Of a stretch of DNA of 48,256 nucleotides, positions 31,140 through 40,767 are shown in pieces. Each line of letters opens with the position of its first letter. Within the stretch, counting starts at the first letter, position 1. A program made the translations under genes and the position numbers. The DNA lies in the NCBI GenBank assembly GCA_017458265.1, contig JAFTFV010000020.1, forward strand, positions 1-48,256, in the 5' to 3' direction. The notes beneath the pieces are model-generated. The model ran no database searches and was not told where the DNA came from. It was given only the letters and a program-made list of their open reading frames with translations. This DNA is from Bacteroidales bacterium. Its GTDB lineage: Bacteria; Bacteroidota; Bacteroidia; Bacteroidales; UBA932.

Positions 31140-31727
31140 ATGGAGAGGGATTTGATAATAGCATGGATGCTGGGCCTGTATTCAGGCCCGGCATTTTATG
31201 AACCTGCAGCCGAGTATTCGGATTTTCTGGAGAGGTCCGAATCGGAAGAACTCATAACCTTCGTGCGCATGGCAGTGATGGAGCTCCGCCGCCGGGAGGT
31301 GGGGGAAGAACTTATCTCCGGCACCATCGCAAGGGACCTGAAGGCCCGTCGCATACGCGTTACACGCGAATTCCGTATCTTCGTTGACGGCCGTGAACTT
31401 CACGTGCGGCCGATGGCAAAAACGGTGTTCCTCCTCTTTCTGAGGCACCCGGAGGGTATCGCGCTGAAAAATATGTGGGATTACAGGGAAGAGCTCAGAT
31501 CCCTGTATTCCAGAATCTCCAGGAGTGACGACAAGGAACTCATAGAAAGGCGCATGGCAAACATCCTTGACCTGTGCAGCAATGAGCTCAACGTGAATAT
31601 ATCAAGGGTAAACTCTGCACTGGCGGCGCTTGTGGACAGCGCCCAGCTGCAGAGTTATACGATATCCGGCCGGCACGGAGCCCCCAAAGGCATCTCCATG
31701 GACCGGTCCCTTGTCGAGTGGGATTAG
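31140..31727 (+). CDS. Unknown protein downstream of glyA
   Basis: Not recognised. A 195-residue, charged, soluble-looking protein with no signal peptide or membrane segment. The middle section (about 80-130: RELHVRPMAKTVFLLFLRHPEG, in part) looks like a winged-helix or effector segment seen in Bacteroidetes hypothetical proteins, then helices with Asn/Ser-rich NVNISRVNSAL. A GGAGG sequence stands just before the start, unusual for this window. It is 21 nt downstream of glyA and likely cotranscribed. Its stop overlaps the stop of the convergent PPC gene (TTAG at 31724-31727). Confidence 0.7.
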   Translation: MERDLIIAWMLGLYSGPAFYEPAAEYSDFLERSESEELITFVRMAVMELRRREVGEELISGTIARDLKARRIRVTREFRIFVDGRELHVRPMAKTVFLLFLRHPEGIALKNMWDYREELRSLYSRISRSDDKELIERRMANILDLCSNELNVNISRVNSALAALVDSAQLQSYTISGRHGAPKGISMDRSLVEWD

Positions 31728-32152
31728 AACTTGTACAGGTTCAGCCCGGTTTCGCCGTCAAGGTATCTGCCGACGGCAGCATCGGGAAAGGCTTCTACGA
31801 GCAGTTCGCACGCGCCGTTTATGCGGGCGGTGAGAAGGTGGCCGCCAATGCAGGTGTAGTCGCTGCGGCTTGCCGTGATGTGAAGATGGAGATATGGACA
31901 GCCGTCTTTCTCGGAAATGTTGCCGGTGAGATTCGTGATTTCCATCTGCTCGCTGAAGGTCTTGTCTACATAGGCCTTTGTGGCCGGGTTCAGGAAGCGG
32001 AATGTAGCCTCTGAGATTGCTCCTATTCCGATGACACTTCCTGCAAGGATTTCTTTTTCATCACAGAAGGCCTTCAGGGCTTCGGTAATTTCAGTGTGAT
32101 TGTCCAGACTCAGGACATAAAGGTTGTCCTTTACTCTTTTGTATTGGTACAT
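31724..32152 (-). CDS. PPC-domain (DUF296) protein
   Basis: A 142-residue single PPC/DUF296 domain. The conserved ligand-type residues are in HLHITASRSDYTCIGGHL (about 97-114). In plants the domain is joined to AT-hooks; the bacterial forms stand alone, usually form trimers and have unknown function, sometimes DNA binding. It is divergent from the HD hydrolase gene, with a TAAATTTG box at 32169-32176 and a short leader. Confidence 0.82.
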   Translation of the reverse strand: MYQYKRVKDNLYVLSLDNHTEITEALKAFCDEKEILAGSVIGIGAISEATFRFLNPATKAYVDKTFSEQMEITNLTGNISEKDGCPYLHLHITASRSDYTCIGGHLLTARINGACELLVEAFPDAAVGRYLDGETGLNLYKF

Positions 32153-32168
32153 GATGTGATATTTTGTC

Positions 32169-32221: not shown

Positions 32222-32229
32222 TATATTTG
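32222..32229 (+). promoter_or_regulatory. -7 box of the HD hydrolase/partner-switch operon, predicted leaderless
   Basis: TATATTTG lies 6 nt before the ATG at 32236, the first gene of a six-gene operon. The -33 zone is T-rich without a clear TTTG. Confidence 0.5.
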
Positions 32230-32235
32230 TACATT

Positions 32236-32823
32236 ATGGCGAACAAACCTTTGGATACCGCCCTTCTTGACAGGGCAATCATCTTTGCAGTGAGGGCGCA
32301 TGCCGGAACTGAACGGCGCGGGAAGGGCTTCCCATATATCGTCCATCCCATGGAAGCCGTAGAAATAGTAGCAACGATAACCCCGGACCAGGAACTTCTG
32401 GCTGCGGCGGCTCTTCATGATACGGTCGAGGATACAGATGTGACCGTAGATGATATCCGCCGTGAGTTCGGAGACCGCATTGCCAACCTTGTTGCATCGG
32501 AAAGCGATGTTTTCGAGGAAGGAGTAAGCGAGGAAGACAGCTGGCATGCCCGCAAGCAGGCGGCGATTGACCGTCTCGCATCGGCCTCACATGACGCCAA
32601 GATAGTCGCCCTGGGAGACAAGCTCTCAAACATGAGGGCCATCGCGCGCGATTATGCCGTGAAGGGAGACGAACTCTGGAAGATATTCCACGCAAAGGAC
32701 CCGGCCGACCATGAATGGCACTACCGCGGCCTTGCCGATTCTCTCCGCGAACTGGAAGAAACATTTGCCTTTAAGGAATTCGAATCTTTGATTAATCAGG
32801 TGTTTACACATGGAAGCCATTAA
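32236..32823 (+). CDS. MESH1-like HD-domain (p)ppGpp hydrolase
   Basis: A 195-residue single HD domain of the RelA/SpoT hydrolase type. Metal site: His in YIVHPME (about residue 37), HDTVED at 61-66, and GDKLSNMR near 131. There is no synthetase, TGS or ACT domain, so it is a small alarmone hydrolase (SAH, MESH1-like) that should degrade ppGpp; other nucleotide substrates are possible. The ATG at 32236 is preferred to upstream TTG because the -7 box covers 32222-32229. It overlaps the kinase-like gene by 14 nt. Confidence 0.85.
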   Translation: MANKPLDTALLDRAIIFAVRAHAGTERRGKGFPYIVHPMEAVEIVATITPDQELLAAAALHDTVEDTDVTVDDIRREFGDRIANLVASESDVFEEGVSEEDSWHARKQAAIDRLASASHDAKIVALGDKLSNMRAIARDYAVKGDELWKIFHAKDPADHEWHYRGLADSLRELEETFAFKEFESLINQVFTHGSH

Positions 32824-33640
32824 GATTACCCTCGACGATTACGTCCTCTCCGGCGGTGGTTTCAACGGCGAGAGCTACGACCACAAGTCCGACCCTTCCA
32901 CCATGCTGAAGCTTTATTTCCCCGGAAAGATTCAGCAGCCCCTGGACGAGATGATGCTCGCCCGTAAGGTCTACGATCTGGGGATCCCTTCCCCCAAGCC
33001 GGGCGATTATGTGGTCACTGAGGATGGCAGGTACGGCATCCGCTTCCACAGAATCCTTGGCAAGAAGTCTTACTCCCGCGCCACCGGTGACGACCCCGCC
33101 AACGTCGAAAAATATGCGGTGGAGTTCGCTCAGATGTGTAAGCTCCTTCACTCTACCCACGTCGATGTGACACAGTTTGAGAACGTGAAGGACAGGTATA
33201 TGCGCCTTCTGGAGCAGAACCCGTTCTTTTCCGCATCGGAAAAAGACAAGCTGGGAAAGTTTATAGCCGATGTTTCCGATGAGGATACCGCCATCCACGG
33301 AGACCTGCAGTTCAGCAATGCCATCTTTGCCGGTGACAAGAAGTATTTCATCGACCTTGGTGACTTCTGTTACGGCAATCATATGTTTGACGTAGGCATG
33401 GTCTATCTTTGCTGTTGCCTGGACGGAGAAGATTTCATCCGAGAGACCTTCCACATGTCAAAAGCTCTTGCCGGAGAATTCTGGGAGTATTTTGCCCCAG
33501 AGTATTTCGGCAAAGACCGCCCGCTAAGGGATATAGAAGAGGAAATCAGGCCTTATGCGGGTCTCAAGACTCTGATTATCGAGCGTGACAGCAACTGTCC
33601 CATGCCAGAATTCCGTGCAGCTTTGACTTCAATCTTATGA
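32810..33640 (+). CDS. Kinase-fold phosphotransferase (Fibrobacter paralogous family TIGR02172 type)
   Basis: A 276-residue protein of the aminoglycoside phosphotransferase/protein kinase-like fold. Catalytic HGDLQFSN (residues 163-170) and metal-binding FIDLGD (180-185) match Brenner's motif and the DFG-equivalent. The N-lobe is short and starts with a Gly-rich stretch SGGGFNGESY. It resembles the TIGR02172 family of gut bacteria; the substrate is unknown. It overlaps the genes on both sides (14 nt with the HD gene, ATGA with the SpoIIE gene), which puts it in this signalling operon; phosphorylation of an operon protein is a possible but unproven role. Confidence 0.75.
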   Translation: MEAIKITLDDYVLSGGGFNGESYDHKSDPSTMLKLYFPGKIQQPLDEMMLARKVYDLGIPSPKPGDYVVTEDGRYGIRFHRILGKKSYSRATGDDPANVEKYAVEFAQMCKLLHSTHVDVTQFENVKDRYMRLLEQNPFFSASEKDKLGKFIADVSDEDTAIHGDLQFSNAIFAGDKKYFIDLGDFCYGNHMFDVGMVYLCCCLDGEDFIRETFHMSKALAGEFWEYFAPEYFGKDRPLRDIEEEIRPYAGLKTLIIERDSNCPMPEFRAALTSIL

Positions 33641-35829
33641 AACTAGAAGGTGTTGACAAAAAAGCGCTGCTGAAGCCTGCACTGGCAGGGGCTGCGCTGG
33701 TTATAGTTGCGGTACTCACTCTTGAAGGCACCGCCATCCTCCAGTATGCCTTTTCCCATAAAGGACTCAAGGAAGAAGCCTCGCTCCGTGCCGAAAGCCA
33801 GCTCGAAGCAACCAGGAACCAGATTCTTGACGTAATCGACCAGGCAGAGACTGCCGTCCGGAACAACATCTGGCTGGCGAGCTGGTGCCTGGAGGTCCCG
33901 GACAGCCTGCACCGCGTTGCAGAGCGTCTGGTGGAGGACAATCCGGTAATAGTAGGCTCTACAGTAGCTCTTGTTCCCGGTTATAGCAGGAAACTTCCTC
34001 TATATGCGCCATATGCCTTAAGGGAAGGGGACGGCGTTGTCCTCAAAAGCCTTGCCGGCGAAGATTATGACTATCCCTCCCAGGAGTGGTTCACAAAGCC
34101 GGTGGAGACCGGCCAGGGATACTGGTCCGAACCATATATAGACGAAGGCGGCGGAGAAATCCTCATGACCACATACTCTGTTCCCATAAGGGACAAGAAA
34201 GGGAATATTGCCGCCGTTCTCACCGCAGACCTTTCCCTTGACTGGCTCACTGAACTTGTAGGCAATGTGAAGGTCTATCCCAATGCATTCAGCATAATGC
34301 TCAGCCGAACCGGCCAGTTCATGGTATGTCCTGCCGAAACCCTTGTCATGCACCGGACTATAAACGAGTTCGTGGGCGGTCTTGAAGGGGACAAAAGGGA
34401 CATTGACAGCCTTGCCAAAGCCATGATGTCCGGCAAGGAAGGCAATATGCCAATCAGGTACAAAGGGGCAACAAGCTATATTTATTTTTCTCCTGTCGAG
34501 CGCACCGGATGGTCAATGTCCATCGTCATTCCTGATACTGAGATTTATGGCGGAGTACGCCGCATCGGACTTTGGGTGAAAATCCTTCAGATACTTGGCA
34601 TCCTGTTGATAATTCTCATTATCTATTCCGTGTTCAAGAACTCCCTGAAATACAGGGCCATGAATGCGAGCAGGGAAAAGATGGAGAGCGAGCTGCAGAT
34701 TGCAAGTGCCATACAGATGGCCATGATTCCAAAGATATTCCCTCCTTTCCCGGAAAGGAAAGACTTGGATATGGCGGCGGCCATAGTGCCTGCAAAGGAA
34801 GTCGGCGGAGACCTCTACGACTTCTACATCAGGGATGAGAAACTCATCTTCTGCATAGGCGACGTCAGCGGCAAGGGCGTTCCGGCCTCGCTGGTCATGG
34901 CTGTGACAAGAAGCCTGTTCAGGAGCTTCTCGGCACATGATTTCGGCCCCGCGCATATAGTCCAGACCATGAATGAGTCAATGTCTGCCGACAATGCAAA
35001 CAACATGTTCGTCACGTTCTTCTGTGGCGTTCTGGACCTCAAAAACGGCCATCTGAGATACTGCAACGCCGGTCACAACGCTCCTTTCATGCTTACCGAC
35101 AAAATCAGTGAGCTGCCTGTCCAGTCAAACATTCCGCTTGGTGTATTGCCCGGCTTCGAGTTCAGCGAGCAGGAAGTTGACATGGCCCATGACGATGCGA
35201 TCTTCCTCTATACAGACGGTCTGAATGAGGCGGAAAATATCAACCATGAGCTCTTCGGCACAGACCGCGTGAAAGCCGTTCTCCGTACCCGCAGGGGCTC
35301 CATGGAGCATCTCAATGCCGTGAATGAGGCTGTCAGGGAATTCGTCGGCGAAGCCCCCCAGAGCGACGACCTCACGATGCTCTTCATCCACTATACCTCC
35401 ACGGATGAACAGTCCCCTGAAAAGCGCAGCCTCGTTCTTGACAACGTCATCGCCGAGATTTCAAAGCTCGCTCCTTTCGTGGACTCCATTGCCGATGAAA
35501 AAGGCCTTGATCCAAGCCTTGCGATGAGCTTGAACCTTGCCCTGGAGGAGGCTGCTACCAATGTCATCATGTATGCATATCCAGAAGGGACTAACGGCCC
35601 CGTATGTCTTGATGCCGTCGTTGGCAAGGACACACTTGAGTTCATTCTTTCAGACAAGGGCATACCCTTCGACCCTACCGCAAAACCCGATGCCGACATT
35701 ACCCTTGGCGTGGAAGAGCGCGGCATAGGCGGTCTTGGCATATTTATGGTAAAGAACATTATGGATTCCGTTTCGTATGAGCGCTCAGAGGACGGAAAGA
35801 ATATACTGACAATGATAAAAAAGATATAA
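33637..35829 (+). CDS. Membrane sensor SpoIIE-type phosphatase fused to GHKL anti-sigma kinase
   Basis: A 730-residue protein. One helix at about 14-38, an extracytoplasmic Cache-like sensor domain (about 45-305, with QGYWSEPYIDEGGGEILMTT, in part), a second helix (about 310-333), a short coil, then a SpoIIE/PP2C phosphatase (about 365-580: VGGDLYDF, GDVSGKGVPASLVM, LYTDGLNEAE, QSDDLTML with the metal Asp residues), then a GHKL ATPase of RsbW type (about 595-730: NLALEEAATNVIMYAYPEG N-box, FILSDKGIPFDP, RGIGGLGIFMVKN). It thus joins both opposing activities of a partner switch, phosphatase and kinase, on one chain. The STAS substrate is encoded 3 nt downstream. Confidence 0.88.
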   Translation: MKLEGVDKKALLKPALAGAALVIVAVLTLEGTAILQYAFSHKGLKEEASLRAESQLEATRNQILDVIDQAETAVRNNIWLASWCLEVPDSLHRVAERLVEDNPVIVGSTVALVPGYSRKLPLYAPYALREGDGVVLKSLAGEDYDYPSQEWFTKPVETGQGYWSEPYIDEGGGEILMTTYSVPIRDKKGNIAAVLTADLSLDWLTELVGNVKVYPNAFSIMLSRTGQFMVCPAETLVMHRTINEFVGGLEGDKRDIDSLAKAMMSGKEGNMPIRYKGATSYIYFSPVERTGWSMSIVIPDTEIYGGVRRIGLWVKILQILGILLIILIIYSVFKNSLKYRAMNASREKMESELQIASAIQMAMIPKIFPPFPERKDLDMAAAIVPAKEVGGDLYDFYIRDEKLIFCIGDVSGKGVPASLVMAVTRSLFRSFSAHDFGPAHIVQTMNESMSADNANNMFVTFFCGVLDLKNGHLRYCNAGHNAPFMLTDKISELPVQSNIPLGVLPGFEFSEQEVDMAHDDAIFLYTDGLNEAENINHELFGTDRVKAVLRTRRGSMEHLNAVNEAVREFVGEAPQSDDLTMLFIHYTSTDEQSPEKRSLVLDNVIAEISKLAPFVDSIADEKGLDPSLAMSLNLALEEAATNVIMYAYPEGTNGPVCLDAVVGKDTLEFILSDKGIPFDPTAKPDADITLGVEERGIGGLGIFMVKNIMDSVSYERSEDGKNILTMIKKI

Positions 35830-35832
35830 GCA

Positions 35833-36138
35833 ATGGAAGTTAACATTACAGCCAAAGGCGACAGCAAGGTCGTAAAACTCGTCGGACGTCTTGATACCGT
35901 AGCATCTCCGGAAGTGACAAAGGCTCTCGAGCCCATCATTGAAGATGCCACCGGAACCATTATCCTTGACTGCAGCGAAATGACTTACATCTCCAGTTCA
36001 GGCCTGCGTATTTTCCTTACCTTGCGCAAGGCCTCCCTGGCCAAGGGCGGTAAAGTAATAGTCCGCAGCATCAACAATGACATCCGCACGGTCTTCATGA
36101 TGACAGGTTTCCTGAATCTCTTCACTATCGAAGACTGA
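35833..36138 (+). CDS. STAS-domain anti-sigma factor antagonist
   Basis: A 101-residue single STAS domain of the RsbV/SpoIIAA type. The loop DCSEMTYISSSGLRIF carries the phosphoacceptor, predicted as Ser55 by alignment with the DS(S/T)G motif. It should be phosphorylated by the GHKL domain and dephosphorylated by the SpoIIE domain of the preceding protein. No sigma factor gene lies nearby, so the final target is unknown. Confidence 0.9.
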   Translation: MEVNITAKGDSKVVKLVGRLDTVASPEVTKALEPIIEDATGTIILDCSEMTYISSSGLRIFLTLRKASLAKGGKVIVRSINNDIRTVFMMTGFLNLFTIED

Positions 36139-36149
36139 ACCCTTGGCCA

Positions 36150-36968
36150 ATGGGCAGAACGATACGGTTTGAAAGAATTGAAAACGGCCGCGAACTCGGC
36201 GGTCTTGTGATGCAGGACGGTCGGGTGGTCCGTTCCGGGACGCTTGTGCGCTGTGGCAATCTTTCCAAAGCCACGGATGGAGACATTGCAATCCTCAAGG
36301 AACGTTTTGACCTCAGTGACGTCTTCGATTTCCGTTTCGAATCCGAAGCTGCCGCCGATCCTGACAGAACAATGGAAGGCGTGCGCAATACGCGTATTTC
36401 GACGCTTCCACAGGCCTTTATTGACGGCTTCTCCTCAGGCCGTGCCGATACTGAACAGGTCAATTCGGAAGATTTTACAGAAGCTCTTGCCGGCTATGCA
36501 TTCATTCCTCAGGCCCAGGAACTTGCGAGGCAGCTGTATCCGGCAATCGTGATGGACTCCACCTCCCAGAAGCGTTATGGAGAATTCCTCCGTGGTGTTC
36601 TGAGGGCCGATGGCGGTGCCCTCTGGCACTGCTCTCAGGGTAAAGACCGCGCCGGATGGGGTACTGCGTTTGTTCTTGCAGCACTTGGCGCATCCCGTGA
36701 AACTATCGTTGAGGACTTCGCTCTTTCCAACGTGTACTTTGCCCCGTTCGTTGAGGCCCTGTCGGCAAAGGTAAAGGAGAAGGGCGGGGGAGAGAATGAA
36801 CTCGTCTTTATCCGTTCAATGGTTGGTGTAAGCGTCGAGAATTTCGAAAGAACGCTTGATTTGATTGATGCCCGTTATGGCTCTTTGGTCTGTTATTTGG
36901 ACAAGGCACTGGGGTTCACTCCTCCAGAGCAGGAAGAACTTAGGGAAAAATATTTGATACTTAAATGA
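36150..36968 (+). CDS. Tyrosine phosphatase-family protein (Y_phosphatase3)
   Basis: A 272-residue Cys-based phosphatase. The P-loop HCSQGKDRAG puts the nucleophile at Cys161 and the Arg at 167; the N-terminal NGRELGG motif matches the family of secreted and cytosolic phosphatases (phosphotyrosine or phosphoinositide). There is no signal peptide. It starts 11 nt after the STAS gene and overlaps the next gene by ATGA, so it belongs to the operon. Confidence 0.85.
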   Translation: MGRTIRFERIENGRELGGLVMQDGRVVRSGTLVRCGNLSKATDGDIAILKERFDLSDVFDFRFESEAAADPDRTMEGVRNTRISTLPQAFIDGFSSGRADTEQVNSEDFTEALAGYAFIPQAQELARQLYPAIVMDSTSQKRYGEFLRGVLRADGGALWHCSQGKDRAGWGTAFVLAALGASRETIVEDFALSNVYFAPFVEALSAKVKEKGGGENELVFIRSMVGVSVENFERTLDLIDARYGSLVCYLDKALGFTPPEQEELREKYLILK

Positions 36969-37534
36969 TTAACAAAATGAAAAGATTTGCCGTTACCATC
37001 GCGCTTGTATGCGCAACCTTAGGCGCCTTTGCGCAGAAACCAGTTTTACGTCCCAGAATGGAGCTTGTCCAGTCCGAGGAGGAAGCAATCAATGGCCTTG
37101 TCAGTACCAGTCTTGAGGTCTTCTATATGGGAGATGAAGATCCTCGTACCTACTATCTGTCGGTAGGACATCTTGGTATGGGTGGAGATATCATCCAGCT
37201 TGAGGTCAACCCTCTCTTCGAGCTCTTCATCCCTCTTGGAAATACCCTTGAGGAGGCTATTGCAAAGATGGAAGAGATCAAGGGTTTCTTCAAGCAGCCA
37301 AAGCTTTCCACCATGGAAATAGAAGGCTGCTACGCCCTTGCATATCCTACCGATGAACTTGTTACAATTACGCTCACAAGGCGTCAGCTCATTGCCGCCA
37401 AGGTCGTTGAATTCAGTATTCCGACTCCTGGAAGTGACACTGTAGTACAGGCTACTTACGTGAGCAAGAGCGAGTTCAGCGGTATTGTCAATTCACTTAA
37501 ATTCTACAAGAAGTTTCATCCGAAGGAAAAATAG
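36965..37534 (+). CDS. Unknown small secreted protein
   Basis: Not recognised. A 189-residue protein with a clear signal peptide (MINKMKRFAVTIALVCATLGAFAQ in parts, cleavage near residue 23). The mature part has no Cys except one, and no repeats. The ATG at 36965 overlaps the phosphatase stop (ATGA); a second ATG at 36977 would also give a good signal peptide. Last gene of the partner-switch operon, so it could be an envelope output or sensor ligand, by position only. Confidence 0.65.
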   Translation: MINKMKRFAVTIALVCATLGAFAQKPVLRPRMELVQSEEEAINGLVSTSLEVFYMGDEDPRTYYLSVGHLGMGGDIIQLEVNPLFELFIPLGNTLEEAIAKMEEIKGFFKQPKLSTMEIEGCYALAYPTDELVTITLTRRQLIAAKVVEFSIPTPGSDTVVQATYVSKSEFSGIVNSLKFYKKFHPKEK

Positions 37535-37540
37535 ACAAGA

Positions 37541-39190
37541 TTATTTCTTCAGAGCCTTCGCATATTCGCTTGGTGTCTTACCGGTAACGGCAAGGAATGA
37601 ACGCTGCAGGGTGCGTACTGTGTAGAATCCGCAGCGGTCGGCAAGTTCGGAAATCGGAATGTCCGGATTCTGGCCGATGAGTTCCAGGGCATGGCGTATG
37701 CGGAGGCTCTTGATATAATCCGGGAAGCTGATTCCGGGCTCAATATCATTGAGCATGCGGCTGATTTCGTTTGACGGTATTCCCAAAAGGGCCGCCGCGC
37801 TCTCCCTGTTCAGATTTTTGTCAAGGTATAGCTGCTTGCCTTCAATGAGCTTCTCAAGACTCTGCTGCGGAGCATCCTTTGGGGAGGCCCTTTCGGCAAT
37901 TACGGCAACCTGGCGCTGTATTGAGCGCAGGCTCTTCTCAAGAGATTCGGTCTCTTCGCTGTGCAGCCGTGCTCTTTTTTCATTCATGGAAAGAAGGATG
38001 CAGATTGCAAGAATCAGGACAAAAACTATGGTAACCAACAACCATTTGTTCTTTTGCAGAGCGTTATTCGTGTCTTCAAGCTGGAAGCGGTAGCGCTGGG
38101 CATTGTATCTGGCGGCATTGACCATGGTGCCCTCTGCAATTTCTTTTTCTTCTATCTGCTTGTTCAGGGAATCGTAGCGGGCTTCATACTCCCTGGCCTT
38201 GGCGGTCAAACCCGCATTCTCATAGGCATCTCTGAGCCTGGCAAGGCGCATTCTGTATGCCCTGCTTACTGTATCGGCACCGGTGTATGGGAGCTCATCG
38301 CGGTAAATGGCGAGTATTTTGTCCGGCTGCCCGGAGACGCTGTAATAGGAGACAATGAGCGTCTTTCCTCCTGTGGTTCCGGCAGCCTTGCGGCTTTTTG
38401 CCTTTTCAAAAGTATCGGCAGCCGCTTTCTGGTTCCCTAATTTGGTGTAGCAGATGGCGCGCCTGATTTCCTGATAGAATCGGCACCTGTCAATGTATGA
38501 GGCGTCGCCCTGCGGGAATTTTTTCTCCATCTTGCCGATGAGGGCATCGTAGTTGTCGCTTTCCTCAAGGGCGGCCTTGTACTGCCCGTCGCCAACCAGG
38601 CTGTTCAAGTATTCTCCATAGAAAAAGAGAAGATGCCCGAAGTCTTCTTCGCTGGAAGCTATTGCCGAGGCTTTCTTTATAGCCCCTTGTATCATTTCGA
38701 GTCCGGTGTCCTCATCCATGTCAAAGAGGCAGTCTCCGGCGAGGAAATCGAAAGAAGCCTCCAGAAAACTCTTTCCTGCCATGTGGGCAAATTTCTTTCC
38801 CTCAGTACATGCAGAGAGCAGCGCCGTGAAGTCCTTTCCACTTTTCAGGATGGTTGCCAGACGATATATGAGTTCAGAACGGGTTGCCGGATCCTGGGCT
38901 TCTTCCTGCTTAAGGGCTTTTTGCATGTATTCGGCGGCGGCGCTGTAGTCCTCTGTGTACAGATATGTGATCTGGGCACGGGTGGTATTGGCGGTAAAAG
39001 CGCTCAGCTGTCCGCTGCGAAGGCCGTCTTCTGTGAGCTGCATTGCCGCATCATAGTCTGTCCGGGCTAGCTCTTGTATTCTGGCCGTGGTATATGTTTC
39101 GTCAGATGACGGTACTGCTTTTTCAACGTGTGTGCTGCATGCCAAAACAGCCGCAAGCACGGATATAAGTAACAGGCTTCTTCTTTTCAT
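37541..39190 (-). CDS. TPR-TM-AraC membrane regulator
   Basis: A 549-residue one-component regulator. N-terminal signal/lipobox-like segment (VLAAVLAC, Cys about 18), a long TPR-like helical sensor region (about 30-375), one membrane helix (about 383-401, LVTIVFVLILAICILL), a short coil, and a C-terminal AraC-type DNA-binding domain with two HTH units (about 455-545, LADRCGFYTVRTLQRSF). Layout is periplasmic sensor to cytoplasmic DNA binding without kinase. If the lipobox is used the protein would be anchored at both ends. The ATG at 39190 fits both the signal and the -7 box. It is divergent from a TPR-TM-LuxR gene and convergent, 6 nt away, with the partner-switch operon. Confidence 0.85.
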   Translation of the reverse strand: MKRRSLLLISVLAAVLACSTHVEKAVPSSDETYTTARIQELARTDYDAAMQLTEDGLRSGQLSAFTANTTRAQITYLYTEDYSAAAEYMQKALKQEEAQDPATRSELIYRLATILKSGKDFTALLSACTEGKKFAHMAGKSFLEASFDFLAGDCLFDMDEDTGLEMIQGAIKKASAIASSEEDFGHLLFFYGEYLNSLVGDGQYKAALEESDNYDALIGKMEKKFPQGDASYIDRCRFYQEIRRAICYTKLGNQKAAADTFEKAKSRKAAGTTGGKTLIVSYYSVSGQPDKILAIYRDELPYTGADTVSRAYRMRLARLRDAYENAGLTAKAREYEARYDSLNKQIEEKEIAEGTMVNAARYNAQRYRFQLEDTNNALQKNKWLLVTIVFVLILAICILLSMNEKRARLHSEETESLEKSLRSIQRQVAVIAERASPKDAPQQSLEKLIEGKQLYLDKNLNRESAAALLGIPSNEISRMLNDIEPGISFPDYIKSLRIRHALELIGQNPDIPISELADRCGFYTVRTLQRSFLAVTGKTPSEYAKALKK

Positions 39191-39194
39191 ACTG

Positions 39195-39202
39195 CAAAGA
39201 TA
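39195..39202 (-). promoter_or_regulatory. -7 box of the TPR-TM-AraC gene, predicted leaderless
   Basis: Minus-strand TATCTTTG lies 4 nt before the ATG at 39190. The sequence TATCTTTGCAG before the start is the same as that before the TrmH-family gene. Confidence 0.5.
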
Positions 39203-39337
39203 TTTCACAAAAGCCGAACTTGTTCTATCTTAAGGCGACAAATCGACGGGCAGGCGCGACAGTTTGTAATCTTTGTTATTCTGCCGCCGACAAGTACCTT
39301 GAGAGGAATCTCCCATAGCTCAAAGATAGCAAACCAA

Positions 39338-39369
39338 TTTGCATATAACAATAATTCTTCTGACCTTTG
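39338..39369 (+). promoter_or_regulatory. Promoter of the TPR-TM-LuxR gene
   Basis: TTTG (39338-39341) and GACCTTTG (39362-39369), spacing 20; the -7 box departs from consensus at its first base. The ATG is 18 nt downstream. The whole divergent gap is 197 nt and holds no other clear element. Confidence 0.5.
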
Positions 39370-39387
39370 TTAGGACAATTCGTTCCT

Positions 39388-40767
39388 ATGAAAAAACTTT
39401 TTGCGGCCTTTGCAGCCTTTGTAACGGTTCTTTCTGCGGTTTCCTGCCGGCCAGACGGAAGGGGAGCGGACTCCTGGAGTGCACTTCTTTCGGAGAGTGA
39501 CCGCCTTGCCGCCGGACAGGACTGGGAACAGGCCACGGAATATGCCCTGAAGGCTTTGTCGGCCCCGGACCTCACGGACGGGGGAAAGTCCTTCTGCCTC
39601 AGCCGCCTTGCCGCCCTTGATATAATCACCTGGCGTGACGCGCAAGGGTGGGAACACGCCCTGGAGGCGGAGCGCCTTGCCCGGGCCGCGGGTACGGATA
39701 CCCTCATTGCGGCCGCCCTTCTCCAGAAAGCCCGCCTGCAGCTTTGCGGGGCCATCACTGAGGGCGAGGCCCAGGATAAAGAGGCTCTGGAGACACTTCA
39801 GGAGGCGCTTGGATATGCCTCCGGCAGCCCTTCCCTCAAGGCCGATATCCTCCTTCAGACAAGCCAGGCATATATCGGCCTCAACCGTTTCAGTGACCCC
39901 ATAGACAAGGAGATTTACGCCAAGGCCGGCGAGGCCATTGACGAGGCCGTGGCTTCTTCCAAGGACCCGGCATTCCCGTCCAGGGCGCTCCCTTACTGGA
40001 TGCGCTGGTACCGTCAGGGCGGCAACTGGAAGGACGGCATCGAGTGCTGCAAAAAGGTCCTGGAGGGCCTCAGCGATGAGGATTACCTTATGCAGAGCCA
40101 GTGCTGGAACAACCTTGTGATGCTCTATGCGCAGGCCGGGGATGTGGACAGTTCGGCATCGGCCCATCAGCAGTATGTCTACGCCATAGAGCATTATATG
40201 CAGAAAAAGGCCGATTCCCGCCTCCAGGAGATGGAAACCCGCTATGAGACTTCCCTCAAGGAACTGAAACTTGCCCGGATGAGCATTGTGCTGGTGGCGC
40301 TGATAATCCTTGCAGTAGCCCTAATAATAATGATGGTGATCTCCCAGGCCTATATCCGCCGCATCGTGGCATCGGACCGCGGAAAGGAGCAGCTCCTGAG
40401 GCTCATCTCAAAGGATCTCGCAAGTCCCAGGGCCGGGGAGAGGGCAGTCCCGGACAAGGAGACCATACGTGCACGCTGCAGCGAACTCCTTGGAGAGGAG
40501 GACGGCATCATGGCCGATGATATCGCTTCCTACATTAATAACCTTGCAGAGGAACGCTCCCGCCGCGTAAAGGAGCTGGGCCTCACCGCCCGTGAGATTG
40601 AAGTGATACGCCTAAGCGCGGAAGGCCTTTCCGCCGCGGGCATAGCGGACCGCCTTCACGTGAGCGTATACACCATAAAGAACCACAAACAGAACATCTA
40701 TACCAAGATGGATGTGCGCAGTAACGCTGAGATGCTCCGTATTGCAAATGAACTGGGGATAGTGTAA
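39388..40767 (+). CDS. TPR-TM-LuxR membrane regulator
   Basis: A 459-residue one-component regulator. N-terminal signal with a lipobox-like end (TVLSAVSC, Cys about 20), TPR-like repeats (about 30-280), one membrane helix (about 297-323, IVLVALIILAVALIIMMVI), a linker, and a C-terminal LuxR/GerE HTH (about 395-455, LTAREIEVIRLSAEGLSAAGIA, in part). Its architecture mirrors the divergent AraC-type regulator, with a different HTH. The following lipoprotein gene is a plausible target. The codon usage is notably GC-rich. Confidence 0.85.
   Translation: MKKLFAAFAAFVTVLSAVSCRPDGRGADSWSALLSESDRLAAGQDWEQATEYALKALSAPDLTDGGKSFCLSRLAALDIITWRDAQGWEHALEAERLARAAGTDTLIAAALLQKARLQLCGAITEGEAQDKEALETLQEALGYASGSPSLKADILLQTSQAYIGLNRFSDPIDKEIYAKAGEAIDEAVASSKDPAFPSRALPYWMRWYRQGGNWKDGIECCKKVLEGLSDEDYLMQSQCWNNLVMLYAQAGDVDSSASAHQQYVYAIEHYMQKKADSRLQEMETRYETSLKELKLARMSIVLVALIILAVALIIMMVISQAYIRRIVASDRGKEQLLRLISKDLASPRAGERAVPDKETIRARCSELLGEEDGIMADDIASYINNLAEERSRRVKELGLTAREIEVIRLSAEGLSAAGIADRLHVSVYTIKNHKQNIYTKMDVRSNAEMLRIANELGIV

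Follow-up and report, generated by a model that had tools for sequence, protein, structure and literature searches.

The stretch of DNA analysed here, referred to as the window, comprises 48,256 nucleotides (nt) of contig JAFTFV010000020.1 from the Bacteroidales bacterium assembly GCA_017458265.1. Six tightly packed open reading frames (ORFs) were confirmed on its plus strand at positions 32236–37534 in the ORF list of the window (Table 1). They encode a predicted alarmone hydrolase with an HD domain, an APH-fold kinase, a membrane sensor fusing a SpoIIE-type (PP2C) phosphatase to a GHKL-type (HATPase) kinase, a STAS protein, a Cys-phosphatase and a secreted protein. This arrangement is beyond chance, because the first four genes hold their order across many genomes. 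In relatives, the operon starts with a gene that has no counterpart in the window and encodes a small alarmone synthetase (SAS) with a RelA_SpoT domain. The link to alarmones is thus stronger than was noted in a previous reading of this DNA made from its letters alone (the sequence-only reading).

Organization of the operon in the window

Coordinates, spacing and Pfam domains agree with a compact six-gene operon on a single strand, as had been proposed. Neighbouring genes overlap by 14 nt (HD/APH), 4 nt (APH/SpoIIE) and 4 nt (phosphatase/secreted protein), or are separated by 3 nt (SpoIIE/STAS) and 11 nt (STAS/phosphatase). The HD ORF lies inside a longer frame with a TTG opening at 32164. The operon had also been placed behind a −7 box, and a possible Bacteroidota −7 box, TATATTTG, is present (we take TAnnTTTG to be the consensus). 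Alone, this box is weak evidence for a promoter, because the window contains 30 matches to TANNTTTG, compared with an expectation of 17.4; as a promoter it would also yield an almost leaderless message, given its closeness to the HD start codon.

Table 1 Features of the six-gene operon and its upstream motif, in window coordinates
Feature	Position	Strand	Basis
Possible Bacteroidota −7 box TATATTTG	32222..32229	+	6 nt upstream of HD ATG
HD-domain small alarmone hydrolase (MESH1/SAH-like), predicted	32236..32823	+	PF13328 (HD_4), 74.9 bits
APH-fold kinase, TIGR02172-like	32810..33640	+	PF01636, 53.4 bits
dCache sensor, transmembrane segment (by eye), SpoIIE (PP2C) phosphatase and HATPase_c_2 (RsbW-like) kinase, 730 aa	33637..35829	+	Pfam/NCBIfam
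STAS protein, anti-sigma-antagonist-like	35833..36138	+	PF01740, 65.2 bits
Accessory Cys-phosphatase, Y_phosphatase3, HCSQGKDR	36150..36968	+	PF13350, 189.0 bits
Accessory secreted protein, family-less	36965..37534	+	no Pfam match

Conserved gene order in related genomes

A profile scan of GTDB genomes for the SAS returned at least 558 confirmed relatives, of which the best 80 are treated here as named loci (L numbers). All 80 are titled Bacteroidales or related Bacteroidia metagenome-assembled genomes, many of them from ruminants. Simple ORF picking placed the SAS gene upstream of HD in 10 of 20 fetched stretches, and profiles placed it there in more. Gene order was counted with hidden Markov models built for the analysis in the 64 named loci where the flank downstream of the SAS gene measures 4.5 kb or more, the other 16 being left out because theirs is too short. 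The partners found in these 64 loci were HD (62), APH (62), PP2C (59), HATPase (62), STAS (61) and the Cys-phosphatase (4). All five core partners were present in 56 loci, and the exact order SAS-HD-APH-PP2C-HATPase-STAS, with nothing else, was observed in 49. The gap between SAS and HD was at most 20 nt in 66 of the 77 loci having both. ORFs were picked mechanically, and PP2C was not found under this picking in L125, L162 and L174, where frameshifts are possible.

The functional link between the switch and alarmone hydrolysis, as first suggested, depended on the order being retained in related genomes. It was retained, which, together with the co-occurrence of the SAS described below, supports the predicted link and extends it. 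The six-gene unit was redrawn as a conserved SAS-HD-APH-SpoIIE/GHKL-STAS unit, in which the first four of the six hold their order; the last two are recurrent accessory genes.

Outside this arrangement, several variants were observed. In other families of the order the genes are reshuffled yet stay together, with STAS adjoining the SAS (L184–L188; also L055, L107 and L177) and the order STAS-SAS in L184–L188, L107 and L177. In genome G080 the parts are spread over several contigs, and SAS and STAS are still neighbours (L055). Family f101 exhibits the SAS-HD pair alone, the Cache-SpoIIE-GHKL and STAS pair being found elsewhere in the genome (2 of 2 genomes). HD and APH form one open frame at 9 places in three families (L032–L036, L185–L188). 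The presence of kinase and phosphatase in one chain, also proposed earlier, proved to be the usual state rather than a fixed one: the STAS kinase is a separate gene in L039, L040, L054, L072 and L185–L188, and at six loci (L032, L034–L038) its fusion partner is a YegS/DAGK-like domain in place of SpoIIE.

At the latter loci (L032 7313–8614; L034–L038), the frame joining the YegS/DAGK-like lipid-kinase domain to the RsbW-like HATPase stands next to a SpoIIE gene. The usual loop of YegS/DAGK-like kinases is GGDGT; the loop in L038 reads GGSGT by eye, and its catalysis appears doubtful.

The small alarmone synthetase

The SAS comprises about 360 residues, of which some 160 form a conserved extension at the C-terminus. 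Its nearest solved structures are RelQ/RelP-type enzymes, such as YjbM and YwaC, and its motifs align with those of solved enzymes of this type. R56, K58, S62, K66, D82, R87, Y128, H132, E156, Q158, R160, H172, Y176 and K177 (L032 numbering) are invariant in 108 of 108 copies.

The window's own genome encodes an SAS on another contig (C24, 46034–47113). This copy matches PF04607 (RelA_SpoT) with 68.4 bits, is predicted to have synthetase activity and is 71% identical to the L049 copy. It is preceded by genes of an amino-acid-type ATP-binding cassette (ABC) transporter, namely a solute-binding/permease gene followed by an ATPase gene 4 nt from the SAS. About 70 nt downstream lies a gene that we read as an insertion sequence (IS)-type helix-turn-helix gene (L053 9186–9683, cut by the contig end). 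The same ABC-SAS pair, with an SAS 99% identical, occurs in Bacteroidales bacterium UBA4360 (L158), where the IS gene has no match and the downstream genes are unrelated. It is therefore likely that the SAS is truly separated from the operon and that the IS did not cause this. The ABC-SAS arrangement recurs in family f101 (L189, L190; HD after SAS) and, at a larger distance, in L124. At L053 5465–8012 and L189 9844–12395, and also in L190 and L124, loci that span separate lineages, the ABC genes upstream of the SAS encode a fused solute-binding/permease protein and an ATPase extended at its C-terminus.

Co-occurrence across genomes

A total of 199 genomes of the window's family were searched for the SpoIIE fusion, HD, APH and SAS. 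The thresholds were at least 395 bits for the SAS (with the addition of G187, whose copy is truncated where its contig ends), at least 250 bits for the HD orthologue (plus one split copy, G169) and at least 740 bits for the SpoIIE fusion. The SAS was detected in 41 genomes and the HD orthologue in 43, with both in 41 (Fisher p 1.4e-40), a strong association. The orthologous SpoIIE fusion was found in 31 genomes, all of which contain SAS and HD; three of these copies are incomplete or interrupted (G102 and G176 incomplete, and the best G114 copy with internal stops). The remaining 10 SAS genomes each have a more distant SpoIIE-domain match, several at the same locus. Two kinds of match fell short of the 740-bit limit: that of G045 (579 bits), which lacks the SAS, and paralogues sharing about 40% identity in SAS-bearing genomes.

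Across the order, SAS matches above 500 bits were obtained in 9 of 393 genomes, the window's own included, and in a phylum sample of 395 they were obtained in that genome only. The link to the partner switch is not general to SAS enzymes, because 8 of 8 distant SAS loci outside the clade lacked PP2C, STAS, HATPase and APH matches; one showed a weak HD match (15.8 bits), and two lie on contigs of 7–8 kb.

Domain composition and conserved residues

Catalytic-residue assignments for these families are established knowledge. They were followed in alignments of 85–108 sequences above chosen score limits (10 for the phosphatase), from which identical sequences had been removed.

The HD protein (195 aa) is a stand-alone HD_4 domain with (p)ppGpp-hydrolase motifs, and is predicted to hydrolyse (p)ppGpp or (p)ppApp. 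Its best PDB match is 4yf1 (E 6.8e-21), and among solved chains SAH/MESH1 and Rel-type proteins come closest. H37, H61-D62, E65-D66, D128 and N132 are invariant in 107 of 107 aligned copies. A second HD match besides the operon HD is present in the window's genome, and a long, Rel-looking HD frame of about 750 aa was found in many of the family genomes listed, including several with the SAS (e.g., G161, G144, G014 and G079). The SAS-HD pair would therefore constitute an additional alarmone circuit beside Rel.

The APH protein scored 214.2 bits against TIGR02172, below the curated cut-off of 228.2, and the L039 relative scored 231.3. All 85 aligned copies scoring 370 bits or more share K34, H163-G164-D165, N170 and D182; the divergent APH domains of the HD-APH chains fell below this limit and are absent from the alignment. 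Elsewhere in the window's genome (G000:C15; L071 1023–5541), APH paralogues form a second cluster together with a Y_phosphatase3 gene, in the order APH-PTP-APH-APH, and L142 has a similar group that includes HD pieces.

The fusion chain contains MCP-like PDC and dCache matches, followed by SpoIIE (168.2 bits, cut-off 25) and HATPase_c_2 (89.2 bits). The phosphatase half retains D392, D409, D527 and D577/578 (domain D8, D25, D143 and D193/D194) and the kinase half the N-box residues E638 and N642 (domain E43 and N47), each invariant in 93 of 93 aligned copies. The STAS protein scored 68.5 bits against TIGR00377, above the cut-off of 53.45. Its S55 is invariant in 94 of 94 aligned copies, followed by S, Q or T, and is likely the phospho-acceptor; we take it to be equivalent to Ser58 of SpoIIAA. 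With the SpoIIE metal-binding Asp residues, the HATPase_c_2 N-box and the STAS Ser, the three parts carry what would be expected of a partner switch of the Rsb/SpoII type, and the residues that the switch proposed in the sequence-only reading would need are retained. In the window's Cache domain, the R-x-W-Y core, which we take to be part of the amino-acid-binding Cache motif, was not seen by eye.

Output of the switch

The window's genome, which is 97% complete, contains one SpoIIE, one STAS and one Sigma70_r3 gene. A single RsbW-like HATPase_c_2 domain scored over the cut-off, within the membrane-anchored fusion, and two more fell below it. The sole Sigma70_r3 gene is a housekeeping-looking frame of 289 aa. 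A second one was sought as a SigB/SigF-type output, and none was found in this genome; extracytoplasmic function (ECF) sigma factors and RpoN were not covered by the search. Since the genome has a single Sigma70_r3 gene, a SigB/SigF-type output is unlikely. The output had been called open for want of an adjacent sigma factor. Pfam indeed detected no sigma gene among the six operon genes, and the range of outputs is narrower than stated, a SigB-type factor being probably excluded.

Comparison with known systems

The closest parallel is SiaABCD of Pseudomonas aeruginosa, in which, as here, a PP2C phosphatase, a kinase and a STAS-like protein share an operon with a second-messenger enzyme. A phosphatase/kinase pair is reported to set the phosphorylation of SiaC (PMC7647112), and the STAS-like SiaC to activate the cyclase SiaD by binding its stalk (PMC8457831). 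In that system the messenger is made by a diguanylate cyclase, whereas here a RelA_SpoT synthetase is accompanied by a hydrolase; no GGDEF match was obtained among the nine window proteins scanned. Most loci here, unlike SiaABCD, have the kinase fused to the phosphatase, and the STAS protein is a PF01740 STAS. The SiaA equivalog model scored 55.1 bits on the window fusion, below its cut-off of 700.

The SpoIIAA/SpoIIAB/SpoIIE and RsbV/RsbW/RsbU switches share with this operon the STAS Ser, the HATPase_c_2 kinase and the SpoIIE phosphatase, with key residues conserved. Unlike in those systems, the only Sigma70_r3 gene would be taken up by the housekeeping factor, leaving none for a SigB/SigF-type one. 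The window's phosphatase domain is also matched by Rv1364c (3ke6) of Mycobacterium tuberculosis, which we understand to be a SpoIIE-RsbW-RsbV fusion near the RelA_SpoT-domain gene Rv1366. We know of no HD or APH gene near this pair. Rv1366 is reported to be inactive as a synthetase (PMC8622095).

The toxic SAS (toxSAS) system FaRel/aTfaRel resembles the relatives studied here in its small synthetase with a small alarmone hydrolase; in the passages of that paper searched, SpoIIE and STAS have no occurrences and no partner switch is mentioned (PMC11782079). An operon of the present kind was not found described in the portion of the open-licence PubMed Central (PMC) literature searched.

Proposed mechanism and alternative explanations

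We give an even chance to the proposal that this Bacteroidales signalling operon places a dedicated pair of alarmone synthetase and hydrolase under the control of a partner switch. Beyond the gene association, domain composition, conserved residues and single Sigma70_r3 gene that the sequences show, we infer a phospho-switch, binding of STAS to the SAS and an alarmone as the product. The membrane fusion protein would sense an outside cue through its dCache domain, and sensing would shift the balance between the SpoIIE phosphatase and the GHKL kinase, so that STAS Ser55 becomes dephosphorylated or phosphorylated. One form of STAS would then bind and switch the SAS, most likely via the conserved C-terminal extension, while the HD enzyme would remove the SAS product and the APH-like kinase, fused to it in some lineages, would work with it. 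By analogy with SiaABCD, STAS would act on the SAS or on HD. A more specific version is put forward tentatively, at somewhat less than even probability. Here STAS would be a direct, phosphorylation-gated activator of the dedicated SAS through its C-terminal extension, and the Cache signal would set (p)ppGpp, or a different pyrophosphorylated nucleotide, without involving the ribosome-linked Rel. On the same signal, a second pair of writer and eraser would consist of the APH-like kinase, whether fused or adjacent, and the Cys-phosphatase.

The alarmone responses known so far are mostly to starved ribosomes, or to fatty-acid or phosphate stress sensed inside the cell. If the proposal is true, these bacteria, gut and rumen Bacteroidales living in ruminants, would possess a direct route from an outside cue to an alarm nucleotide, via a membrane Cache sensor and a phospho-switch with its own synthetase and hydrolase. 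The logic of SiaABCD would then extend from cyclic di-GMP to alarmones, with phosphorylation of STAS Ser55 setting SAS activity.

Several observations weigh against this proposal. The window's own genome carries its SAS outside the operon, and in L158 no partner gene lies within 9 kb of the SAS. Of the 64 loci counted, 8 lack at least one of the five partners in the range used (L173 only through that range). The HD orthologue occurs without SAS in G003 and G196. A Cache-SpoIIE-GHKL and STAS pair, 43% identical, is present without SAS in G045/L063, and 39 of the 158 SAS-less family genomes have some match to the fusion protein; the switch can therefore serve something else. A mirror-tree comparison with shared signal removed, over 69 loci with all six components, gave partial r values of 0.27 for STAS with the C-terminal part of the SAS (5–95% range 0.16–0.38, 200 subsamples), 0.13 for STAS with its N-terminal part and 0.04 for STAS with HD. 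The STAS distances thus point weakly to the C-terminal part of the SAS. No partners can be named from so weak a comparison, since HATPase-STAS, where a kinase-substrate relation is expected, gave a value near zero (0.01); APH-STAS reached 0.25 and APH-PP2C 0.37.

An alternative is a classical partner switch with a transcriptional output, through an ECF factor, the RpoN pathway or another regulator, the alarmone genes being merely co-transcribed. We regard it as unlikely, even though all three switch parts are canonical and the G045 pair lacks an SAS. No sigma gene is found among the six, the only RsbW-like domain over the cut-off is membrane-anchored and the only Sigma70_r3 gene looks like a housekeeping one. 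Moreover, a SpoIIE-domain match occurs in 41 of 41 SAS genomes of the family, compared with at most 39 of the 158 others. It is improbable that the genes form a co-inherited stress island, a shared regulon (for nutrient limitation) in which switch and alarmone enzymes act in parallel with no protein contact. Operon membership alone shows no physical contact, and the APH, phosphatase and secreted-protein genes come and go, but in several families the association survives even where the genes have been reshuffled, fused or dispersed over other contigs, beyond what a shared promoter would need.

A toxin-antitoxin or defence role also seems improbable; in it the SAS would be toxic and HD its antitoxin, as in FaRel/aTfaRel, and the partner switch would only release or restrain the SAS. 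The adjacency of SAS and HD and their near-perfect co-occurrence would fit such a role, as would the patchy distribution (the SpoIIE fusion is present in 4 of 19 same-genus genomes) and a partial PADLOC hit of the SAS (PDC-S33, 49.7 bits, residues 12–164). A small alarmone hydrolase is reported as one antitoxin of FaRel (PMC11782079). However, among solved structures the SAS is closest to RelQ/RelP-type synthetases, and the window's genome keeps both SAS and HD, though unlinked. None of the six operon proteins of the window had a PADLOC hit. A mobile element was likewise considered and set aside: matches in phages (SpoIIE protein) and plasmids (SAS, STAS) were all below 60% identity, and no phage record spanned 80% of the SpoIIE fusion and no plasmid record 80% of the SAS, each of these two proteins being compared with one of the two collections. 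For STAS, 15 of 15 plasmid records covered 80% of the query, with 30–38% identity in the five matches listed.

Accessory and neighbouring genes

The Cys-phosphatase gene adjoins the module in L039, L040, L133, L139, L161, L164 and L184, and also occurs in the APH-rich clusters (L071, L142). Relatives of the secreted protein, whose N-terminus is signal-peptide-like by eye, are found directly upstream of the SAS in L109, L130, L132, L137 and L143.

The operon is flanked upstream by a PCC-domain gene (31724–32152) and downstream by an AraC-type regulator (37541–39208; AraC-type DNA-binding end, Pfam), both on the minus strand. Beyond the latter lies a second regulator on the plus strand (39367–40767), LuxR-like by eye. 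In L161, a frame 33% like this second regulator sits 3 nt upstream of the synthetase match.

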